This document shows, piece by piece, positions 7,708 through 45,064 of a DNA stretch of 64,000 nucleotides. The stretch is from a virus: the IMG/VR virus record IMGVR_UViG_3300035001_000008, positions 61,756 through 125,755 of that record; one strand, given 5' to 3'. Under the pieces are notes generated by a model. The model was not told the DNA's origin, did not search any database, and worked only from the letters and a program-made list of their open reading frames with translations. The translations under genes were made by a program, and so were the position numbers. Position 1 is the stretch's first letter; each line of letters begins with the position of its first letter.

Positions 7708-9294
7708 TTATACGGAAGATAGCCATCCTAGGGCGTTTACTTGATCGAATTGCGATAGGTAAGTATGGCAACCGGATACAGCGTCACAAACATCAGAACC
7801 ATCCTTTTTGGTTCCATCAAACGCATGTAAAAAAGCTAAAAACTGCGGTGTAAAATCAGCATTTAATACCTTAACTCTACCATTTGAAATAAATTCGCCG
7901 CTATCAGGGTCAGTAATAGGTTTGCAAGTTGCCGCAAAAGGCTTCATTCTTGTTAGTTTATCGCCCATTGGTCTAATACCTTCTGCGTCTACACCAGATA
8001 GCCTACTTTTTAAGTTGGCCTCAACTTTCAAACCGCTACTACCCCCCTCCAATTCCCAACGTAAGGCGTAAGCTCTTCCTCTATTAAATTTACTGTCTTG
8101 ATATCCTTGATTAACAATTAAATTATCCCCATCTGTAGGCGATAATTGATCCCAAGTTGCATCAGCTATTAAATAATAGAACTCATTTGAATCATAGGGC
8201 ATGATTAAATACATGAATACTGAAGCGGTATAACATGCAGAATCATTTACTTCTTTGGCAGTAGCCGCCATGTCAAAAAATCTACAGCAATAGATCTGCC
8301 TAACACGGTTAAAGTCTGGTAATTCCTCAACTATCTCTATCCAAGTTTTATTAATAACAACGCCGGAAGCGTAGTTTACAAGCCAGTTGCCTCCGAGCAA
8401 TCTTGCGGATTCGATTGCATCTTGTGCCATCAAATTAGCTTTATAACATGGATCTTTTTCTAATAGAATTTTGTTGTCTGATAATTTAGAAGGGATAAAA
8501 GTAAATGACTTAGGCAGCATCTCAGGGTAAGCATGTAAAGCATCTTCTTTTGAATCAAACCATTTAATTTCATCGCTTATTCTCACAAACCAGCGGATAA
8601 CTCCGCCCCTCTCATTGATAGGTAATCCTGTCTCAGGGTCAATCCACCAGCCCAACAAGCCGCTACCCCAACCATTCTTACCAGTAATCAGCCAACTGTC
8701 TGCATCGGGGTTACAAGTGCCTCTGATGCAGGGTTTAATTCCTGATGTTGAACGATTACGAGACATCAGATAGAAAAATTGACTTTCGGTGAAGTGTGCG
8801 ATTTCATCCATGCCAATTCTAGTTATCTGAGCACCTTGCCAAGAAAACTTATCCTTCTCATGCTGTAGATGCCTAAAATCTATTCGAGAGCCTGAAGGGA
8901 ATCGCCACTCCTGCCCATTTTGTTTTCCTACTCCACCTACTAATGGAAAAATCTTTTCCGCCTCATTTGCGAGGCCGCCGGGAGCGGTGATCTGCGGTGA
9001 TGTGCGCCGGAAGATGACAGCAGAATATTCAGGATTTTCTACATACTCTTCTTTTGCAAAGTCAAGCAATAATCCCCAGGTTTTTGCGCCGCCTGCTGCG
9101 CCCCCGAATATTATAATATCAGCATCACAATTAACAAATGTTGTTTGAGGGCCAGGTTGTGTAGCAGGCAATCCTTTAACGTTTTCGTCAATTTCAGATG
9201 CTTTCTTAGCTTTATTCCTAGATGAAACGACTAAGGGCAATTCTGAGATTGCCCTATCTAATGCATAAGATTTTACTTTCTTTTTAACAGGCAT
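7708..9294 (-). CDS. terL: Terminase large subunit (packaging ATPase/nuclease)
   Basis: 528 residues, usual TerL length. The ATPase has a Walker A-like loop FGGAAGGAKT at about 63-72 and Walker B RIGMDEIAHF at about 159-168, with an RGTCNPD coupling motif near 191. The nuclease half shows RNase-H-like acidic residues: D341 (FFDMAAT), D378 (LIADATW) and a late D near 504 (DVCDAVSG). It also has the GDKLTRMKPFA stretch typical of this group. The protein drives ATP-dependent headful or site-specific packaging into the procapsid. The start ATG lies inside the end of the upstream homing endonuclease (11-bp overlap). The small subunit is not adjacent. Confidence 0.95.
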   Translation of the reverse strand: MPVKKKVKSYALDRAISELPLVVSSRNKAKKASEIDENVKGLPATQPGPQTTFVNCDADIIIFGGAAGGAKTWGLLLDFAKEEYVENPEYSAVIFRRTSPQITAPGGLANEAEKIFPLVGGVGKQNGQEWRFPSGSRIDFRHLQHEKDKFSWQGAQITRIGMDEIAHFTESQFFYLMSRNRSTSGIKPCIRGTCNPDADSWLITGKNGWGSGLLGWWIDPETGLPINERGGVIRWFVRISDEIKWFDSKEDALHAYPEMLPKSFTFIPSKLSDNKILLEKDPCYKANLMAQDAIESARLLGGNWLVNYASGVVINKTWIEIVEELPDFNRVRQIYCCRFFDMAATAKEVNDSACYTASVFMYLIMPYDSNEFYYLIADATWDQLSPTDGDNLIVNQGYQDSKFNRGRAYALRWELEGGSSGLKVEANLKSRLSGVDAEGIRPMGDKLTRMKPFAATCKPITDPDSGEFISNGRVKVLNADFTPQFLAFLHAFDGTKKDGSDVCDAVSGCHTYLSQFDQVNALGWLSSV

Positions 9295-29973: not shown

Positions 29974-30186
29974 TTAATAGCATCCGTAGCCCATTTCGAT
30001 AACGATTTCAGCTAAACGACCTTCACAATCTGCACAGTTTTCAACATTATCACTATCAATAGATGTCAAACATGGGCCTAAGTTTATATCCCTTAGATAA
30101 CCACCTCCATTAAATCCATCTAAAATCATTACTTCAAAATCGCCATCAATTTTATTTAAGCGTTCAATCAATTTAGACTTAAGCAT
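29974..30186 (-). CDS. Small acidic Cys-containing protein
   Basis: 70 residues from ATG 30186, with GGGAAG upstream; an in-frame TTG at 30225 would overlap the previous gene by 47 bases. Contains NVENCADCEGRLAEI (one CxxC) and a Gly-rich turn (DGFNGGGYLRDINLGPC). Not recognised. Confidence 0.65.
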   Translation of the reverse strand: MLKSKLIERLNKIDGDFEVMILDGFNGGGYLRDINLGPCLTSIDSDNVENCADCEGRLAEIVIEMGYGCY

Positions 30187-30406
30187 TATTAAAAACTTCC
30201 CATATTTCAGTTTGACAAGGTTCAATCTCTATATCTAGCTCAGTCCCGGCAAAGGTTACTAATTTAAGTGATATTGGATTAATCAAAAACACTCCAGTTT
30301 GAGTAAATGCAACTAAAAGACCACCAGACCATTCACCTTGAATAAAAGCAGGATGTTTACCTGATTCAGTTAAAACATAGATGTCGGGTGGTCTAGGTAA
30401 ACGCAT
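30179..30406 (-). CDS. Hypothetical small beta protein
   Basis: 75 residues. Strand-rich (DIYVLTESGKHPAFIQGEWS; GVFLINPISLKLVTFAGTEL), like a small barrel. Not recognised. Eight-base overlap with the next gene. Confidence 0.65.
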   Translation of the reverse strand: MRLPRPPDIYVLTESGKHPAFIQGEWSGGLLVAFTQTGVFLINPISLKLVTFAGTELDIEIEPCQTEIWEVFNNA

Positions 30407-30408
30407 AC

Positions 30409-30594
30409 CTACAGGCTTTTAATTTGAGTAAGCATCGATTCAGCCATGCAAAAAGCCATAGCGGCTAGAGCATCTGTTTGTGCCATAGGAGTAAGGCTAG
30501 TATCATATTTATGATTTGCTAGAAGAATCGTCATGCACTCAATAGCTAAATTGATATGTGCATCACTACCATAGCTGTAATCAGTTTTAGACAT
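30409..30594 (-). CDS. Hypothetical small helical protein
   Basis: 61 residues from ATG 30594, preceded by GGAAATTAAAA; the earlier in-frame codons overlap the promoter. Helical with three Cys/Met-rich segments (IECMTILLANH; ALAAMAFCMAESML). Not recognised. First gene of the leftward transcript. Confidence 0.65.
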   Translation of the reverse strand: MSKTDYSYGSDAHINLAIECMTILLANHKYDTSLTPMAQTDALAAMAFCMAESMLTQIKSL

Positions 30595-30619
30595 TTTTAA
30601 TTTCCATACACATGCGCAC

Positions 30620-30648
30620 ATTCTAGCTTAACTCTGTCTAATATGCAA
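30620..30648 (-). promoter_or_regulatory. Leftward TTGCAT-17-TAGAAT promoter with TTAGAC box
   Basis: On the minus strand TTGCAT, ATTAGACAG, spacer total 17, TAGAAT. It is divergent from the rightward promoter at 30665 and a strong class member. Confidence 0.7.
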
Positions 30649-30664
30649 CACATTCATTCAAGGG

Positions 30665-30693
30665 TTGTCGATAGGTATATCACGTTATATAAT
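30665..30693 (+). promoter_or_regulatory. TTGTCG-17-TATAAT promoter
   Basis: TTGTCG (30665-30670), 17 bases, TATAAT (30688-30693). A plain sigma-70-like promoter with no TTAGAY box in its spacer; a TCTAATATGCAA box lies 20 bases upstream, shared with the divergent promoter. Confidence 0.65.
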
Positions 30694-30719
30694 GAGACTC
30701 AATTAAATTAAAGGACTCA

Positions 30720-30992
30720 ATGAAACTTCTACACTGTTCTAATTGCGGCGATATATTCAATTTAGATTTAACTAAAAAATCGTGTAGATGTGGTGAAACT
30801 TGGGGCTACTATCAAACTGATGGAGTTAAAGCCGTTGTGTCTGCTGGTAGGCATACAACGGCTATAGGGTTTACCAATCCTACTTTTCTCTATGCCCGTA
30901 TAAATCGCCCCAAATCTGGTATGGGAGAACGGTTTACTGCTTTTGTAATGCCTGAGCACTGCGATAATATTTTCTATTCAAAAGGTGCGTAA
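30720..30992 (+). CDS. Zinc-ribbon small protein
   Basis: 90 residues. N-terminal four-Cys ribbon CSNCGDIF ... CRCGETWGYY (residues 6-27), then a beta-rich domain (GRHTTAIGFTNPTFLYARIN). The ribbon suggests binding to nucleic acid or a host protein. No specific family is recognised. Monocistronic, with its own promoter. Confidence 0.75.
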   Translation: MKLLHCSNCGDIFNLDLTKKSCRCGETWGYYQTDGVKAVVSAGRHTTAIGFTNPTFLYARINRPKSGMGERFTAFVMPEHCDNIFYSKGA

Positions 30993-31026
30993 GTTCATAT
31001 AAAGCTTGGGTTTCTTTACCTTAGCT

Positions 31027-31057
31027 TTATATAATATTAGATAGGGTGCGTTATTAT
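31027..31057 (+). promoter_or_regulatory. TTATAT-19-TATTAT promoter with TTAGAT box
   Basis: TTATAT (31027-31032), spacer with AATATTAGAT, TATTAT (31052-31057). AATATTAGATAGGG follows the class alignment. Confidence 0.65.
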
Positions 31058-31082
31058 TTAAGGGTAGATAGAGGAAAGGTAA

Positions 31083-31304
31083 ATGTTCACTAGTGAAACT
31101 GTTTCTATTATCTGTGAACTACTTAGTTCTGCTGTTAGCTGGTCTAACGTTATTCATGGTAGTACACGTAAGGTTGTTAAAGGTGTGATTGTCGATGAAT
31201 CAGATGTAAAAACTGTTGTAGACCTAGTTGATTTTCAAGTTAGTCTAACCGACCTAGGGCATTCAGTTCTGATTACCGATAATCGTTGCCCTGACCCACT
31301 ATAG
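31083..31304 (+). CDS. Hypothetical small protein
   Basis: 73 residues, GAGGAAAGGTAA before ATG. Helix (VSIICELLSSAVSWSNVIHG) then strands (GVIVDESDVKTVVDLVDFQ). Not recognised. Own class promoter. Confidence 0.7.
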   Translation: MFTSETVSIICELLSSAVSWSNVIHGSTRKVVKGVIVDESDVKTVVDLVDFQVSLTDLGHSVLITDNRCPDPL

Positions 31305-31360
31305 CTTTTAAGGTGCGTCTACTTAAATAATTTGACTCATGAATAATAAAGGAATTAAAA

Positions 31361-31594
31361 ATGTTATCTCCTAACTATTACGCTGGCTGGAACTTCGCTA
31401 TTTCTCAACTTTCAGTAGATAGAGTAAGCCGTAAGGCTTTTGTTAAAGGTTTATCAGACTCTATCCAAGTAGAAGAGTATTCAGCGCATGGCAGTGATTA
31501 CTACAAAGGGTTATCAGATGCCGTAGCCACCTACCAGGCTAATCGAAAGATTCCCATTAAAGCTGAAATTAAAGTAGTTTCCTTTTTTAGTTAG
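31361..31594 (+). CDS. Hypothetical small protein
   Basis: 77 residues, AAAGGAATTAAAA before ATG. Two similar segments: FVKGLSDSIQVEEYSAHG and YYKGLSDAVATYQANRK, a hint of an internal repeat. Not recognised. The next ATG follows its stop at once (TAGATG). Confidence 0.7.
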   Translation: MLSPNYYAGWNFAISQLSVDRVSRKAFVKGLSDSIQVEEYSAHGSDYYKGLSDAVATYQANRKIPIKAEIKVVSFFS

Positions 31595-31957
31595 ATGGAT
31601 ACTCAGAAATTTAAGCAGCAACTATGGAATGCACTTAATTCAAATTCAGAGTTAGCTTTTCAAATTAAACGATATTCTAGCTTTTACGCTAGAGGTCTTA
31701 AATGTAGAGCAATTGAATTTAGTCAAAGGTTTGTTTATCCTGAAGTAGTATTCAACTGTCTTAAATGGTACGCATCCAATTTACTTGATAAAGATAGAGA
31801 GTTTGTTCAAGAATTAGGGGGTGATTTAGAACCTTTTATTCCTGGTTTCAGTAAGCAACATTATTGGAGAGTTTACAAAGATGAATTAAGTTCAATTCAA
31901 TGGGGTAAGTTAAAGAAAGAATTTAATGTAATTGTTGGGCCGTACATTAAAGATTAA
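31595..31957 (+). CDS. Hypothetical protein
   Basis: 120 residues, starting directly after the previous stop. Helical and basic, with aromatic residues (FQIKRYSSFYARGLKCRAIE; PGFSKQHYWRVYKDEL). Not recognised. A terminator follows 28 bases later. Confidence 0.7.
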   Translation: MDTQKFKQQLWNALNSNSELAFQIKRYSSFYARGLKCRAIEFSQRFVYPEVVFNCLKWYASNLLDKDREFVQELGGDLEPFIPGFSKQHYWRVYKDELSSIQWGKLKKEFNVIVGPYIKD

Positions 31958-31984
31958 ATCTCAATAAACTAAATAAGTTAAACT

Positions 31985-32015
31985 AAAGGGATGTATGTTT
32001 TAATACGTCCCTTTT
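31985..32015 (+). terminator. Terminator overlapping the EAL gene start
   Basis: AAAGGGATGTAT and ATACGTCCCTTT form a 12-bp stem with one G-T pair. It ends one base before the ATG of the EAL gene, so readthrough or an uncaptured start must supply that gene. It may therefore act as an attenuator. Confidence 0.7.
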
Positions 32016-32807
32016 ATGCTTTTTATTCACTCTACTAACCTTTTAATTGAAATTCAATTAGGTTTAATGAGGGGGGATTTTGAGCTTTATTATCAGCCTG
32101 TGCTTAGCTTAAAAGAAGATAAAGTAATAGGCTTTGAAGCTTTAGTTAGATGGAATCACAATAATTTAGGATTACTTAGCCCTGATAAGTTCATCCCATT
32201 TATTGAAAAGTTTGATTGGCTAGCTTGTCAGTTTAGCCGATATGTACTTAAAAAAGCTGTTAAACAGGCTAAGGAATGGAATTGTGATGAGAATTTATAC
32301 ATTGCCGTCAATATTCCTACTGCCCATATCGGTAAGACTGGTTTTGCTAAGTTTGTAGACGATATTCTATTTGAAAATGGGCTTAGCCATTCTGCTTTAG
32401 TTTTAGAAATTACTGAATCAAGTTATGGTGACTTTGCACCAATTATTAGAAGCTTAGCCAACCTTAAAGACCTAGGAAGTAGACCACACCTAGACGACTT
32501 TTTAACCGGCTTTAGTTCATTTGAAAGATTGCTTAGACTTGAAAAGTATTTAAGTGCTGTTAAAATATCAGAGCTTTTTGCCGCTAATTTAGTTGATAAT
32601 TCTGATATTGTTCATCTTCTAGTAGGTGTAGCCCATTCAAGGAATTTGAAAGTAATTTCAGAAGGAATTGAATCTCCTGCGCAATTAGATGTGGTTAAGC
32701 GGTTAGGTGTAGATGCTGCTCAAGGTTGGTTATGGTGCCCCGCCCTACCAGCAATTAAAGCTAAACAATGGGCTGAGGCTTATAACATCAAATATCAAAC
32801 CGTATAA
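32016..32807 (+). CDS. EAL-domain protein, probable c-di-GMP phosphodiesterase
   Basis: 263 residues, a complete stand-alone EAL domain. Signature residues are all visible: FEALVRW (about 40), E in FIPFIEKFDW, N in YIAVNIPTAH, E in LVLEITESSYG, DD in LDDFLTGFSS (about 161), K in AVKISELF, E in VISEGIES (about 216) and Q in AAQGWLWCPALPA. The metal- and substrate-binding set thus looks intact. The enzyme would cut c-di-GMP to pGpG in the cytoplasm and lower the host signal controlling motility, biofilm and pili. ATG 32016 keeps the first helix; ATG 32067 would remove it. It follows a terminator. Confidence 0.85.
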   Translation: MLFIHSTNLLIEIQLGLMRGDFELYYQPVLSLKEDKVIGFEALVRWNHNNLGLLSPDKFIPFIEKFDWLACQFSRYVLKKAVKQAKEWNCDENLYIAVNIPTAHIGKTGFAKFVDDILFENGLSHSALVLEITESSYGDFAPIIRSLANLKDLGSRPHLDDFLTGFSSFERLLRLEKYLSAVKISELFAANLVDNSDIVHLLVGVAHSRNLKVISEGIESPAQLDVVKRLGVDAAQGWLWCPALPAIKAKQWAEAYNIKYQTV

Positions 32808-32843
32808 ATCGCTACAATTTAGTTATCCTTTTAATTAATAAAA

Positions 32844-32993
32844 ATGAAACTAAAGCGGCGAGGTGTTGAGTATCAATTTAAATTAGTTGAGCTTAAAACT
32901 ACGGTTGACGATAAGGCTAGAATGCTTGAGAGTGAAGCACATCAAGCCGACAGGCGCAATGCTGAGACTTTGAGAGTATTGGTAATGCGTTGA
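32844..32993 (+). CDS. Small helical protein
   Basis: 49 residues from ATG 32844. Charged helix (YQFKLVELKTTVDDKARML; HQADRRNAETLRVLVMR). It would be co-transcribed with the EAL gene. Not recognised; moderate support because the upstream leader has no clear ribosome site. Confidence 0.5.
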   Translation: MKLKRRGVEYQFKLVELKTTVDDKARMLESEAHQADRRNAETLRVLVMR

Positions 32994-33031
32994 TTATCTT
33001 CATAGATGTACGGTTGGTCTTTATATTACCT

Positions 33032-33062
33032 TTACCTAATGCTACTCTCTAGCGTATATAAT
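33032..33062 (+). promoter_or_regulatory. TTACCT-19-TATAAT promoter
   Basis: TTACCT (33032-33037), spacer with AATGCTACTC, TATAAT (33057-33062). The box here is degenerate. Confidence 0.65.
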
Positions 33063-33089
33063 TTGAATATACGCAGAGGAATTAAACAA

Positions 33090-33260
33090 ATGACCATCAA
33101 CGATATCGCAGTAGGTGACACGGTTACTCTAGCCTCTGGCGAAACTGCCAAAGTAAAAGATATTCAGTTTCTTAAAGTGTTTATTCAGAAAGTCAAGTTT
33201 GGCCCTGTTACATCCCTAAATGTGAATATTAAAGATCAAACTATTCAAGGTCTAGCCTAA
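33090..33260 (+). CDS. Small beta protein
   Basis: 56 residues from ATG 33090, with AGAGGAATTAAACAA upstream; earlier in-frame codons lie in the promoter. IAVGDTVTLASGETAKVKD and a VFIQKVKFG strand suggest a mini beta-barrel. Not recognised. Own promoter and terminator. Confidence 0.7.
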   Translation: MTINDIAVGDTVTLASGETAKVKDIQFLKVFIQKVKFGPVTSLNVNIKDQTIQGLA

Positions 33261-33279
33261 AAATAAAACAAGCTAAAGT

Positions 33280-33307
33280 AAACCCCTAAGATGTCTTAGG
33301 GGTTTTT
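33280..33307. terminator. Bidirectional terminator
   Basis: AAACCCCTAAG, 4-base loop, CTTAGGGGTTTTT, between the plus gene at 33090 and the leftward gene at 33317. Confidence 0.85.
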
Positions 33308-33316
33308 AGTGTGTAT

Positions 33317-33589
33317 CTAAGCAGCTTCATTAATTAATCGTTCTCTCAGTTCTTTAGCCATACCCATAAAAGATTCTGTATCAGATCCTAGCGTTTTACA
33401 GTGATTGTCAAAATCGTTAGGTGTTGCTGTAGATTTAACTTTATTAATACACCCAGGACGTTTAGCGTATACACAACATTTAGAATAAAAGGCTTCAGAT
33501 GTCATAGATTTAGCTAAACCTAGCTCAGCCATTCTAGTAATAAATAAATTGTCTTGCTTAGTTACACCACAAGCACTACAAGATTCCAT
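33317..33589 (-). CDS. Small Cys-containing protein
   Basis: 90 residues. Cys pattern CSACG at 4-8, KCC near 37-39, GCI near 46 and HC near 63, possibly metal-binding. Helical end (MGMAKELRERLINEAA). Not recognised. Overlaps the upstream gene by 14 bases. Confidence 0.7.
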   Translation of the reverse strand: MESCSACGVTKQDNLFITRMAELGLAKSMTSEAFYSKCCVYAKRPGCINKVKSTATPNDFDNHCKTLGSDTESFMGMAKELRERLINEAA

Positions 33590-33767
33590 TAAAGCTACCC
33601 CAAGTTTCTTTTTTCATAACGTTAACGGTTACTTGGTCTTTGCAGAGCATTAGGTAATGTACTTTAAGCAACATTTCTTTAGCTTGAGCTTCATTCATCT
33701 TTTCAACGCTAATTTCAAGGTTACGCTGGATGAATTGCTTTTCTGGTGAAAGTTGAATTGGTTGCAT
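33576..33767 (-). CDS. Hypothetical small helical protein
   Basis: 63 residues. Mostly helix (SPEKQFIQRNLEISVEKMNE; AKEMLLKVHYLMLCKDQVT). Not recognised. Middle gene of a three-gene leftward set. Confidence 0.65.
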   Translation of the reverse strand: MQPIQLSPEKQFIQRNLEISVEKMNEAQAKEMLLKVHYLMLCKDQVTVNVMKKETWGSFNGIL

Positions 33768-33788
33768 AATAAATACCGTTAATAATAG

Positions 33789-34019
33789 TTACTGAAAACT
33801 TTCCTTATATTCTTCATCGTTAAGGGAATAAACATCTAAATCAGATTCTTTAGATGGAAATGAGGGTTGCCCTTTATTTTTACCTCTAGTTTTCAATCTA
33901 CAAGACTCCCCTTTAATCAACACGCCATTGTTTGTACTCTCAATAATTCTGTGATACCAATCGTCGCTAAGATTAAACTTGGTACGCATATACAAATCTA
34001 GCTTAGTAGGTCTATCCAT
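33789..34019 (-). CDS. Hypothetical small basic protein
   Basis: 76 residues. Basic Gly/Lys-rich centre (CRLKTRGKNKGQPSFPSKES), helical start (RPTKLDLYMRTKFNLSDDWY). Not recognised. AAAGGAATAA before ATG and a class promoter 24 bases upstream. Confidence 0.65.
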   Translation of the reverse strand: MDRPTKLDLYMRTKFNLSDDWYHRIIESTNNGVLIKGESCRLKTRGKNKGQPSFPSKESDLDVYSLNDEEYKESFQ

Positions 34020-34042
34020 TTATTCCTTTAATAACTGCACTC

Positions 34043-34071
34043 ATTCTATCTAATATTTATCTAATATGCAA
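34043..34071 (-). promoter_or_regulatory. Leftward TTGCAT-17-TAGAAT promoter with two TTAGA boxes
   Basis: On the minus strand TTGCAT, ATTAGATAAATATTAGA (17 bases), TAGAAT. The spacer holds two direct copies of ATTAGA, one at the class position and one next to the -10. Confidence 0.7.
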
Positions 34072-34075
34072 TGCT

Positions 34076-34636
34076 TTAGTTAAATCTAATAGTAGGGCTG
34101 CTTTCTTCGAGCATAACGCCTCTCTCTAAATTAAATCGATACTTATCAAGGCTGAGTATGCACTTCCATAACTCACCTTGATACCCGTCAATCTCACCGC
34201 CTACTAGCACCTGGTAAGGCTTAAAGCCTCTCCAAGATGATTCGTTAGGGCCAATACCTAACTTAAACCTATCGGCCTTAATGCCCATTAGAGCGCCTTG
34301 GCCTACAAATTCACCATGTTTTAGATCTAACTTGTTCTCTGTATAGTATTTGACGATTTGGAAGCCAAGGTCAAATATCTTTTTTGAGCCACCATCGGGG
34401 AACTGTTTTGTTTTTACCTTAAAGTGAGGATAAACACACCAAAAACCTTCTAAAGGAGCTACGTCTACTTTTTGCTTAATTTTATAATTGAGTTTTTTGC
34501 GTACCGAATATCTCCATCCTTGCTCTATTGTTGAACCTTCTGGGTAGGTGTGCAGATTGTACTTATTCTCAATATCTGGGCTTTTGCTTAGAGTGCCGTG
34601 GAAAACACCATAAGCGCTAAAAATAACATCGTCCAT
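34076..34636 (-). CDS. Unrecognised 186-residue protein
   Basis: 186 residues. Alpha/beta with basic strands (RYSVRKKLNYKIKQKVDVAP; WCVYPHFKVKTKQFPDGG) and a C-terminal Trp-containing region (QGELWKCILSLDKYRFNLER). No motif recognised. It ends five bases before the next leftward promoter; its own promoter is not obvious in the short gap to the divergent 34703 gene. Confidence 0.7.
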   Translation of the reverse strand: MDDVIFSAYGVFHGTLSKSPDIENKYNLHTYPEGSTIEQGWRYSVRKKLNYKIKQKVDVAPLEGFWCVYPHFKVKTKQFPDGGSKKIFDLGFQIVKYYTENKLDLKHGEFVGQGALMGIKADRFKLGIGPNESSWRGFKPYQVLVGGEIDGYQGELWKCILSLDKYRFNLERGVMLEESSPTIRFN

Positions 34637-34702
34637 TATTAATAAAATTAAAGTATAAATCTATTCTACCTTAAATCTAATATTAAACACTCCGTAATAC
34701 CC

Positions 34703-35134
34703 ATGAGATTTTTTAGCTTTAATTCAAATAAAGAACTTGAATTAATTAAGACTGATGTAATTGAAGTGAAACGTCAACTTACTTCATTACTTGAGTCTGT
34801 GGAGAGAAATAATATAGCCGATGCTGAAGTGTGCGCTTTGATTAAAAAGCAAGATGCCGCTATTGATAGATTGAATGTCCTTAACGTTGATAAAGAGAAG
34901 AAATTAACTGGTCTTTCTCGCTGGGTAATTTTGGGTGTGTTGGGAGTGATGAGTTTAAGTGTGCAATACTCATTGGCCTACGATAAAGGAACGGGAATAA
35001 GTGTTAAGCCTAGTTCTGGGTCTAGTCCAATTCTCCCGATTGCATATGGCGTTGCGATCATTGCGATTGCTGCCAATCAAGATGATAAGGTTGGGGTTTT
35101 GATTGACAGCATTGTGAAAAAGATTAGCGGTTAA
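34703..35134 (+). CDS. Coiled-coil membrane protein
   Basis: 143 residues. Residues about 9-65 form a coiled coil (LIKTDVIEVKRQLTSLLESV), followed by a membrane segment at about 73-92 (WVILGVLGVMSLSVQYSLA) and a second hydrophobic stretch at about 107-122 (LPIAYGVAIIAIAANQD). It may sit in the inner membrane with the coil in the cytoplasm. Size and layout could fit a lysis-related, superinfection-exclusion or signalling protein; none is proven. ATG 34703 has no clear ribosome site. Confidence 0.65.
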   Translation: MRFFSFNSNKELELIKTDVIEVKRQLTSLLESVERNNIADAEVCALIKKQDAAIDRLNVLNVDKEKKLTGLSRWVILGVLGVMSLSVQYSLAYDKGTGISVKPSSGSSPILPIAYGVAIIAIAANQDDKVGVLIDSIVKKISG

Positions 35135-37804: not shown

Positions 37805-38254
37805 GTGAACAAAGGATTTACTTTGATTGAGTTGATGGTAGTAATGGTAATCATAGGCATACTTGCTGCTATAGGATTACCCATCTATCTTAATCAAATA
37901 ATGAAAGCTGAGAACACTGAAGTACTAATGCTGCTTGATAGCTTAGCTACTCCAATAGAAGAATTTAATTTAATTAATAACCGATATCCTGCTGATGTAA
38001 ATTCAGGTAATAACCCAGGCTTGTCTGTATGGCCTACTGAAATCCCTTTTGATTCAGTTTTAGATTATGAGCATTGGAGTGTTGAGCACAATATGTGTGT
38101 TGTTCTAATAAATCACTTTGGCAGAAATAGGGTGAGAGATGCCCCTGTTCATATGAAAGCGGGTGAAGTAGGTTCCATTGTTATGGTTGACGATGATTTC
38201 ATTAAAACTATTGCTGAATATCCTTGCGATTCTCCAAGAGGGTCTATTCGTTAA
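37805..38254 (+). CDS. Type IV prepilin-like protein
   Basis: 149 residues from GTG 37805, with AAGGG eight bases upstream. The N-terminus MNKGFTLIELMVVMVIIGIL is a textbook class III signal: short leader ending Gly4, processing before Phe5, Glu at mature position 5, then a hydrophobic helix to about residue 28. The rest is a small globular domain with two Cys (NMCVVLINHF; EYPCDSPRGSIR) that could form the usual C-terminal disulphide loop. It would need a host prepilin peptidase and pilus or secretion machinery. In a phage it may alter host pili, uptake or receptor access. Confidence 0.85.
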   Translation: MNKGFTLIELMVVMVIIGILAAIGLPIYLNQIMKAENTEVLMLLDSLATPIEEFNLINNRYPADVNSGNNPGLSVWPTEIPFDSVLDYEHWSVEHNMCVVLINHFGRNRVRDAPVHMKAGEVGSIVMVDDDFIKTIAEYPCDSPRGSIR

Positions 38255-43996: not shown

Positions 43997-45064
43997 TTAC
44001 AGTGTTGGGTTAGCTAGAACGTGGGCATTGATTACTTGAGCAAACGTGTCAGGATAGTCATTGCTCTTAGGAATGAAGAATCTACCTTCTGTCATCTCTT
44101 CCATAACCTCAGCATGGTAAGCACCGCCTCCAACTAGAAGCACTTCGCCTAGCTGCTCACCGAACCACACTTCTTTGAGAAGATAGCGGCCTAAAGCTTT
44201 GAACCACTTCAACCGTTCTTGGTCGTAAATATCGTGAAAATAGTAATCATTGCCTGAATGCGTATACATAAAAGGATTACTAGGATCGTTCTCAGCAGTA
44301 AAACCTTCCTTGCGGTACTTTAGACCCGCTTCTATTGCTGTCATGATTACAGCCTCATCTAGGCTTTCAGATAGTCCATTATCCTGCTGAATACGATAAG
44401 CAATACCCCGTGCAAGGTCGTTAAGTCCTTTTTTATGCTGGCTAAGCTTCCAGTTAATGCGGCCACCTGGCGAGATAAGCCTAGCCGTCATAGCCCCGCC
44501 ACCAAAGTCAATAATGCCTTGTGATCGGCTAGGGAACTTAAAAGCGTTGTTTGTGATTGCCCACATATAAGGAGGTAGCCCCTCAGGAATCAAAGTAACT
44601 TTGTCTATCCGTACAGACCATGAATCCTGCCGATATTGAAATTTAATGGTTTGGCCATCTAGCAAAGTTTTGAATTTTTCCCAACTCTTATTACGGTGAT
44701 CTTCTACCAACACTCGCAAATTAGAGATTACTGGGGTCTGCACTTGAAACCCTACTTGAGCAATCACAGCCATAACCATAAGGTGTGATTTATTGCTTTT
44801 ACCTTCCTTAAACATAGGAGGGCAATTTAGTTGCTTTGCCCGTTCTCCAATAACGTAACGCCGACCTTCATAGGTGATAACTACAGACTCAGGCTTGTTC
44901 AATTCTTCCTGATATTGCTGTTCATCCTGAATCTCACCGATGTAAGAAGGCATACGCTTTACGTTGCCATAAGCATCTACCCACTTAACGTAAGCGTTAC
45001 CAGGATCAAACCCCAAAACATCCATTTTGCCAATAGTCGGCATTTCATCCTTTTTAGTAGGCAT
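43997..45064 (-). CDS. parM: Actin-like partition ATPase (ParM/StbA family)
   Basis: 355 residues, usual ParM length. Phosphate-1 motif DVLGFDPGNAYVKWVDAYG (about 14-32), phosphate-2 IIDFGGGAMTARLIS (about 188-202) and adenosine motif EVLLVGGGAYHAEVM (about 307-321). GAGGAAATT precedes ATG. ParM polymers push plasmid copies apart when joined by ParR to the parC site. In phages the same family can also centre or move phage DNA. It is followed by the ParR-like gene. Only the exact subfamily (ParM versus Alp7A-like) is open. Confidence 0.85.
   Translation of the reverse strand: MPTKKDEMPTIGKMDVLGFDPGNAYVKWVDAYGNVKRMPSYIGEIQDEQQYQEELNKPESVVITYEGRRYVIGERAKQLNCPPMFKEGKSNKSHLMVMAVIAQVGFQVQTPVISNLRVLVEDHRNKSWEKFKTLLDGQTIKFQYRQDSWSVRIDKVTLIPEGLPPYMWAITNNAFKFPSRSQGIIDFGGGAMTARLISPGGRINWKLSQHKKGLNDLARGIAYRIQQDNGLSESLDEAVIMTAIEAGLKYRKEGFTAENDPSNPFMYTHSGNDYYFHDIYDQERLKWFKALGRYLLKEVWFGEQLGEVLLVGGGAYHAEVMEEMTEGRFFIPKSNDYPDTFAQVINAHVLANPTL

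Follow-up and report, generated by a model that had tools for sequence, protein, structure and literature searches.

A stand-alone EAL-domain protein with an altered loop 6, probably a c-di-GMP phosphodiesterase, encoded in a tRNA-Phe prophage of a presumed cyanobacterium

What lies near the middle of the window, as we call the whole 64,000-nucleotide stretch analysed here, is an open reading frame that starts with an ATG, ends with a TAA and encodes a protein of 263 residues, exactly as the earlier note had read it (Table 1). Pfam recognizes the EAL domain (PF00563) in this protein with a score of 178.3 bits (cut-off, 31.3 bits; E=2.1e-52), the match covering positions 5-235 of the 236-position model; a second Pfam domain was not found. 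Upstream of the ATG the frame stays open for just four more codons (267 in total), so that a GGDEF or sensor domain cannot be attached, which bears out what had been said on this point. In a PDB sequence search the protein matches MorA (E=9e-35) and the EAL domains of PdeA, MucR, BifA and RocR; the non-catalytic EAL receptors LapD and FimX are far weaker matches than these phosphodiesterases. An AlphaFold (AF2) model, for which 21 sequences were aligned, reaches a mean pLDDT of 90.7 and superimposes on solved c-di-GMP-bound EAL structures with Z scores of about 30-32, as in the case of the c-di-GMP complex 3n3t, where the Z score is 31.7 and the rmsd 2.0 over 253 aligned residues. With a whole-domain match above the curated cut-off and a TIM barrel in the model, the protein is a member of the EAL family and has, as predicted, its characteristic fold.

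Table 1. Positions in the window of the EAL gene, its sequence motifs and the surrounding features discussed in the text
Feature	Position	Strand	Remarks
Terminase large subunit	7708..9294	-	prophage context
Upstream ORF, codirectional	31595..31957	+	120 aa; no family match; likely the gene ended by the hairpin
Terminator-like hairpin	31985..32014	+	12 bp; U-tract TTTTATGCTTTTT includes the EAL start codon
Stand-alone EAL-domain protein	32016..32807	+	263 aa; domain 14-242
EAL(VR) motif	32136..32150	+	E41 and R45
DDFLTGFSS	32493..32519	+	metal-binding D160 and D161 kept; first Gly of loop 6 replaced by Leu163
K183-I-S185	32562..32570	+	catalytic Lys kept; near-invariant Asp replaced by Ser
EGIE	32661..32672	+	general-base Glu E216, and E219
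Prepilin-like protein	37805..38254	+	149 aa; class III signal/N-methylation motif; PF07963 E=2.8e-9, TIGR02532

The window corresponds to bases 166435-230434 of a contig, C36, of 255,358 bases, which belongs to a genome of 5.9 Mb. A region of this contig, at roughly 106 to 231 kb, has a GC content of about 38%, down from about 56%, and a perfect direct (att) repeat of 122 bp is found at C36:106025 and C36:231434. The left copy overlaps a tRNA-Phe gene that is intact, and the gene for an integrase of phage type (phrog_1, E=1.5e-39) begins 153 bases inside the island. When the host flanks are joined around one att copy, the resulting sequence occurs in one piece in most of 27 further genomes of the same genus that were searched, for example over 445 bases at 94% in G034 and over 412 bases at 96% in G031, and it is split in two in the genome that bears the EAL gene. 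Besides the terminase, the island carries genes for a portal, a head maturation protease, a lambda-J-like fibre and tail proteins, and also for a sliding clamp, a methyltransferase, a family-A DNA polymerase, a primase-polymerase/helicase, SSB, ribonucleotide reductase and ThyX. These are the attributes of a temperate tailed phage: att repeats, an integrase, a tRNA target and an uninterrupted site, combined with head, packaging and tail genes. We therefore regard C36:106025-231555, within which the window lies, as an apparently complete temperate prophage of siphophage type with a length of 125.4 kb. Together with the codon usage of the EAL gene, which is like that of the phage, these observations strongly support the gene's designation as phage-encoded. 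One protein encoded in the right host flank is recognized as NAD(P)H-quinone oxidoreductase subunit H (849 bits against a cut-off of 583), and another, resembling UDP-sulfoquinovose synthase, scores below its family cut-off; from these families and the neighbouring gene content we infer that the host is a cyanobacterium. Searches with terminase, capsid and DNA polymerase returned only distant kin of the phage among 386 genomes of the phylum.

Several other genes of the prophage deserve mention in their own right. An actin-like partition protein of the ParM/ALP type is encoded at 43997-45064 of the window, suggesting a plasmid-like or segregating stage of what is here an integrated phage. CapR/treble-clef-type proteins are repeated across the phage (window 26178-27032 and 47560-48615; C36:128848-130395 and 135770-136894); the two in the window carry Pfam CapR, a 515-aa copy matches phage endonuclease families, and the genes are probably mobile elements resembling homing endonucleases. 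The phage also has a pair of neighbouring tRNA genes, Arg(TCT) and Met(CAT), upstream of a TnpB-like ORF (L010:4017-4165, C36:150452-150600).

Is the active site that of a functional phosphodiesterase? Set against the EAL domains of 62 relatives, the metal-ligand and catalytic positions of the family (E, N, ExxE, DD, K, EGxE and Q) are all occupied as expected, the residues kept being E41, R45, N99, E131, E134, D160, D161, K183, E216, E219 and Q236. The same comparison nevertheless reveals two replacements: Leu163 takes the place of the first glycine of loop 6 (DDFG), which is Gly in 62/62, and Ser185 that of the aspartate in the KID motif, which is Asp in 61 of the 62. Loop 6 has been defined as DFG(T/A)GYSS, with a first glycine that is 88% conserved over 8082 EALs, and both positions belong to the hydrogen-bond network that places this loop (PMC2994820). 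The phage protein reads DFLTGFSS and has S185 for the Asp, and thus departs from the strict class I signature; in our model, loop 6 (residues 161-170) has a mean pLDDT of 76, among the lowest values of the chain. EAL proteins that possess the catalytic base and deviate elsewhere in the signature have been classed as uncertain in activity (PMC12900916). Enlarging alanine A526 of ZMO1055 reduces its phosphodiesterase activity (PMC12900916); by the numbering of that study, and counting by hand, its equivalent in the phage protein is A206, where the alanine is kept. The catalytic set described as intact in the earlier note is thus intact in its chemistry, but the description overstates the site as a whole, in which two residues of the loop-6 network have been exchanged. 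The name phosphodiesterase is likely to be correct: judged from its residues, the protein probably hydrolyses c-di-GMP, an activity that Leu163 and Ser185 make less than assured. That the catalytic residues were kept in spite of a long evolutionary branch argues for selection on catalysis. This natural Leu/Ser variant also offers a test case for how strictly EAL catalysis needs loop 6.

The same substitutions could, however, mean that the protein is a weak or conditionally active phosphodiesterase, or mainly a c-di-GMP-binding effector that acts through protein contact, for instance on pili or on a phage regulator. The location of both exchanges in the positioning network, the low model confidence of the loop and the long branch are consistent with this, but the protein retains the general base and every metal ligand, and no partner protein is known. 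The EAL receptors FimX and LapD, by comparison, have lost these residues. We consider such an attenuated or purely binding role a tentative possibility and favour an active phosphodiesterase.

With regard to expression, the gene starts one base after a terminator stem, as had been stated, the hairpin ending at 32014 and the ATG beginning at 32016. This hairpin has a minimum free energy of -16.4 kcal/mol with 12 pairs and a z score of -5.75 (0/200 shuffles); as a class, terminator-like motifs are not enriched in its region, with 4 observed against 2.6 +/- 1.9 expected. The attenuation to which this arrangement was thought to hint is not supported: the EAL start codon falls within the U-tract, and the hairpin dominates the predicted folding, with no competing structure seen. 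In the simplest reading, it terminates the transcript of the upstream 120-aa ORF. A start at the next in-frame ATG, 32067 (Met18), would cost the protein most of its first helix, which spans residues 2-19 in the model, so that 32016 is the better choice. A Shine-Dalgarno sequence is absent upstream of this ATG, which is unexceptional given that only 32% of the phage genes of at least 120 aa have one. Neither a convincing promoter for the gene nor, within 30000-35000, any Rfam match was found, and the gene may be expressed by read-through, from a leaderless transcript or from an unrecognised promoter.

Our analysis of codon usage and phylogeny bears on where the gene came from. At 0.25, its GC3 is closer to that of phage genes (0.32) than to that of host genes (0.64), and its per-codon log-likelihood ratio lies above the phage mean. 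The nearest relatives are domains of 36-40% identity from the same bacterial family, nearly all of them within much longer proteins. In the tree, the phage protein sits on a branch of 1.7 changes per column, three times the median of 0.52, which joins another long branch, and this meeting of long branches makes its placement uncertain. Taken together, the codon usage, the distant relatives and the long branch indicate on sequence grounds that recent capture from this host is not the source of the gene.

No close relative of the protein came to light in the searches. A search of genome contigs returned 21 EALs with 29-37% identity. In viral contigs, a query with the single protein found no relatives, and an alignment query, which required a GDFELYY or DDFG-type pattern and was thereby biased against variants, found 156 stretches that encode EAL. 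Among the best 80 of these, four are stand-alone (<340 aa), none of which is located at least 8 kb inside its contig, and the 17 IMG/VR matches that are located so deep are multidomain proteins of 589-953 aa. A scan of viral contigs for the motif DDFLTGF yielded nine stretches, none of them EAL, and a viral structure library held no EAL match, its best hits being glycerophosphodiesterases with a TM of 0.39, an absence that is not proof. An EAL-containing family of 589-602 aa recurs in L131 and ten related IMG/VR loci (e.g. L123, L133, L141, L156 and L158), often deep within viral contigs of 53-72 kb, and constitutes another, independent phage-linked c-di-GMP protein family. Further candidates were rejected. 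The EALs obtained by tblastn against phages are all below 34% identity, many of them on short or apparently mislabelled bacterial contigs, and were not used as evidence that phages encode EALs; the EAL on contig DQ115821 of Cyanophage AS-1 lies on an unannotated 1.7-kb fragment that may be host DNA, and was not relied upon; and genome G209, which shares a capsid protein of 57% identity and a few head genes with the phage, has its nearest EAL about 80 kb away in a 632-aa frame, so that the EAL cargo is not shared.

Could the gene be a mere passenger, moron-type cargo that is poorly expressed and has no present role in a low-GC region of hypothetical genes? The missing Shine-Dalgarno sequence, the lack of a convincing promoter and the hairpin right at the start codon are in keeping with this, as is the failure to find a close relative in other phages, owing to which conservation cannot be shown. 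However, genes of this phage commonly lack a Shine-Dalgarno sequence, and an intact frame, catalytic residues that are intact at deep divergence and fully phage-like codon usage imply that the gene has long been kept as a protein. We thus deem a passenger role quite improbable.

The best overall explanation, and in our judgement a modestly probable one, is that the EAL cargo of this tRNA-Phe prophage is an unregulated phosphodiesterase that lowers the c-di-GMP level of its host. As a stand-alone cytoplasmic enzyme, it would bind c-di-GMP and two divalent metals in a canonical site and linearise the nucleotide to pGpG. Without an attached sensor, its output would be set by its expression level, that is, by phage dose, and host c-di-GMP would be lowered in lysogeny or infection. 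This may shift the balance from aggregation towards dispersal and type IV pilus motility, and the phage could benefit through dispersal of the lysogen or through receptor availability. In several cyanobacteria, c-di-GMP acts against type IV pilus motility and in favour of aggregation (PMC7690835, PMC5871770; see also PMC9090330), and one proposal is that a high level of the nucleotide might protect cyanobacteria from phages via reduced pilus dynamics (PMC7690835). By analogy, it is plausible that lowering c-di-GMP would push the host to motility, as the earlier note proposed. In Leptolyngbya, a diguanylate cyclase mutant became more motile and also gained biofilm (PMC10581220), which makes the direction of the effect uncertain. 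Moreover, the host genome encodes 21 other EAL domains, so that one more phosphodiesterase may have little global effect and may be likelier to act locally or at certain times.

The prepilin that had been noticed 5 kb away is real. It resembles host pilins over about the N-terminal 60-70 residues, the common region, and its remainder is without a match. The two genes are separated by 5.0 kb with several genes on both strands; the functional tie drawn between them reflects proximity alone, and a joint role is conjecture. A further idea is that a sensorless phosphodiesterase with a rebuilt loop 6, possibly with the phage's own prepilin, reprogrammes c-di-GMP-controlled pilus motility and aggregation of the host in lysogeny; we find it unlikely, but if true, it would amount to a lysogenic-conversion system for cyanobacterial behaviour. 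That the enzyme is not a motility regulator but serves counter-defence or superinfection control by removing an antiviral cyclic dinucleotide is scarcely credible: phages are known to deploy phosphodiesterases to overcome cyclic-nucleotide defence, and the gene is cargo in a region rich in hypothetical genes, but the host genome has no match to the SMODS (CD-NTase) family, PADLOC reported nothing for the EAL gene and the scanned neighbours bar homing-endonuclease models and one marginal mad8, and the normal specificity of EAL domains is for c-di-GMP. Since c-di-GMP governs phototaxis, aggregation and biofilm formation in cyanobacteria, whose large temperate phages are little studied, the EAL protein would, if active as a phosphodiesterase, represent a defined, single-domain, phage-borne handle on this switch.

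How does the protein compare with known systems? With the EAL phosphodiesterases (PF00563) MorA, PdeA, RocR and TBD1265 it has the fold, the domain length and the metal and catalytic residues in common; unlike them, it is without a sensor or GGDEF domain and carries the Gly to Leu exchange in loop 6 and the Asp to Ser exchange in KID. Its identity to anything found is only 30-40%. Stand-alone EAL proteins are exemplified by YhjH/PdeH and by a protein of Vibrio cholerae O395 (6ij2); like the phage protein, they consist of a single domain of about 250-260 aa. In sequence they are only distant from it (6ij2: 21% identity, E=1.5e-7), and the phage protein differs in being encoded in a prophage. 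The PHROG families that match it, phrog_11823 (E=3e-55) and phrog_22021, are multidomain, with 693 and 782 positions, and the match is confined to their C-terminal EAL part. Metagenomic viral c-di-GMP enzymes resemble the present case in being c-di-GMP turnover genes in phages: Mu-like viruses carry a diguanylate cyclase (PMC7785012), and Sargassum viruses a yhjH phosphodiesterase and mucR (PMC11295528). Virus-borne c-di-GMP enzymes are therefore already known in the literature, and the phage EAL joins them as a stand-alone domain in a prophage.
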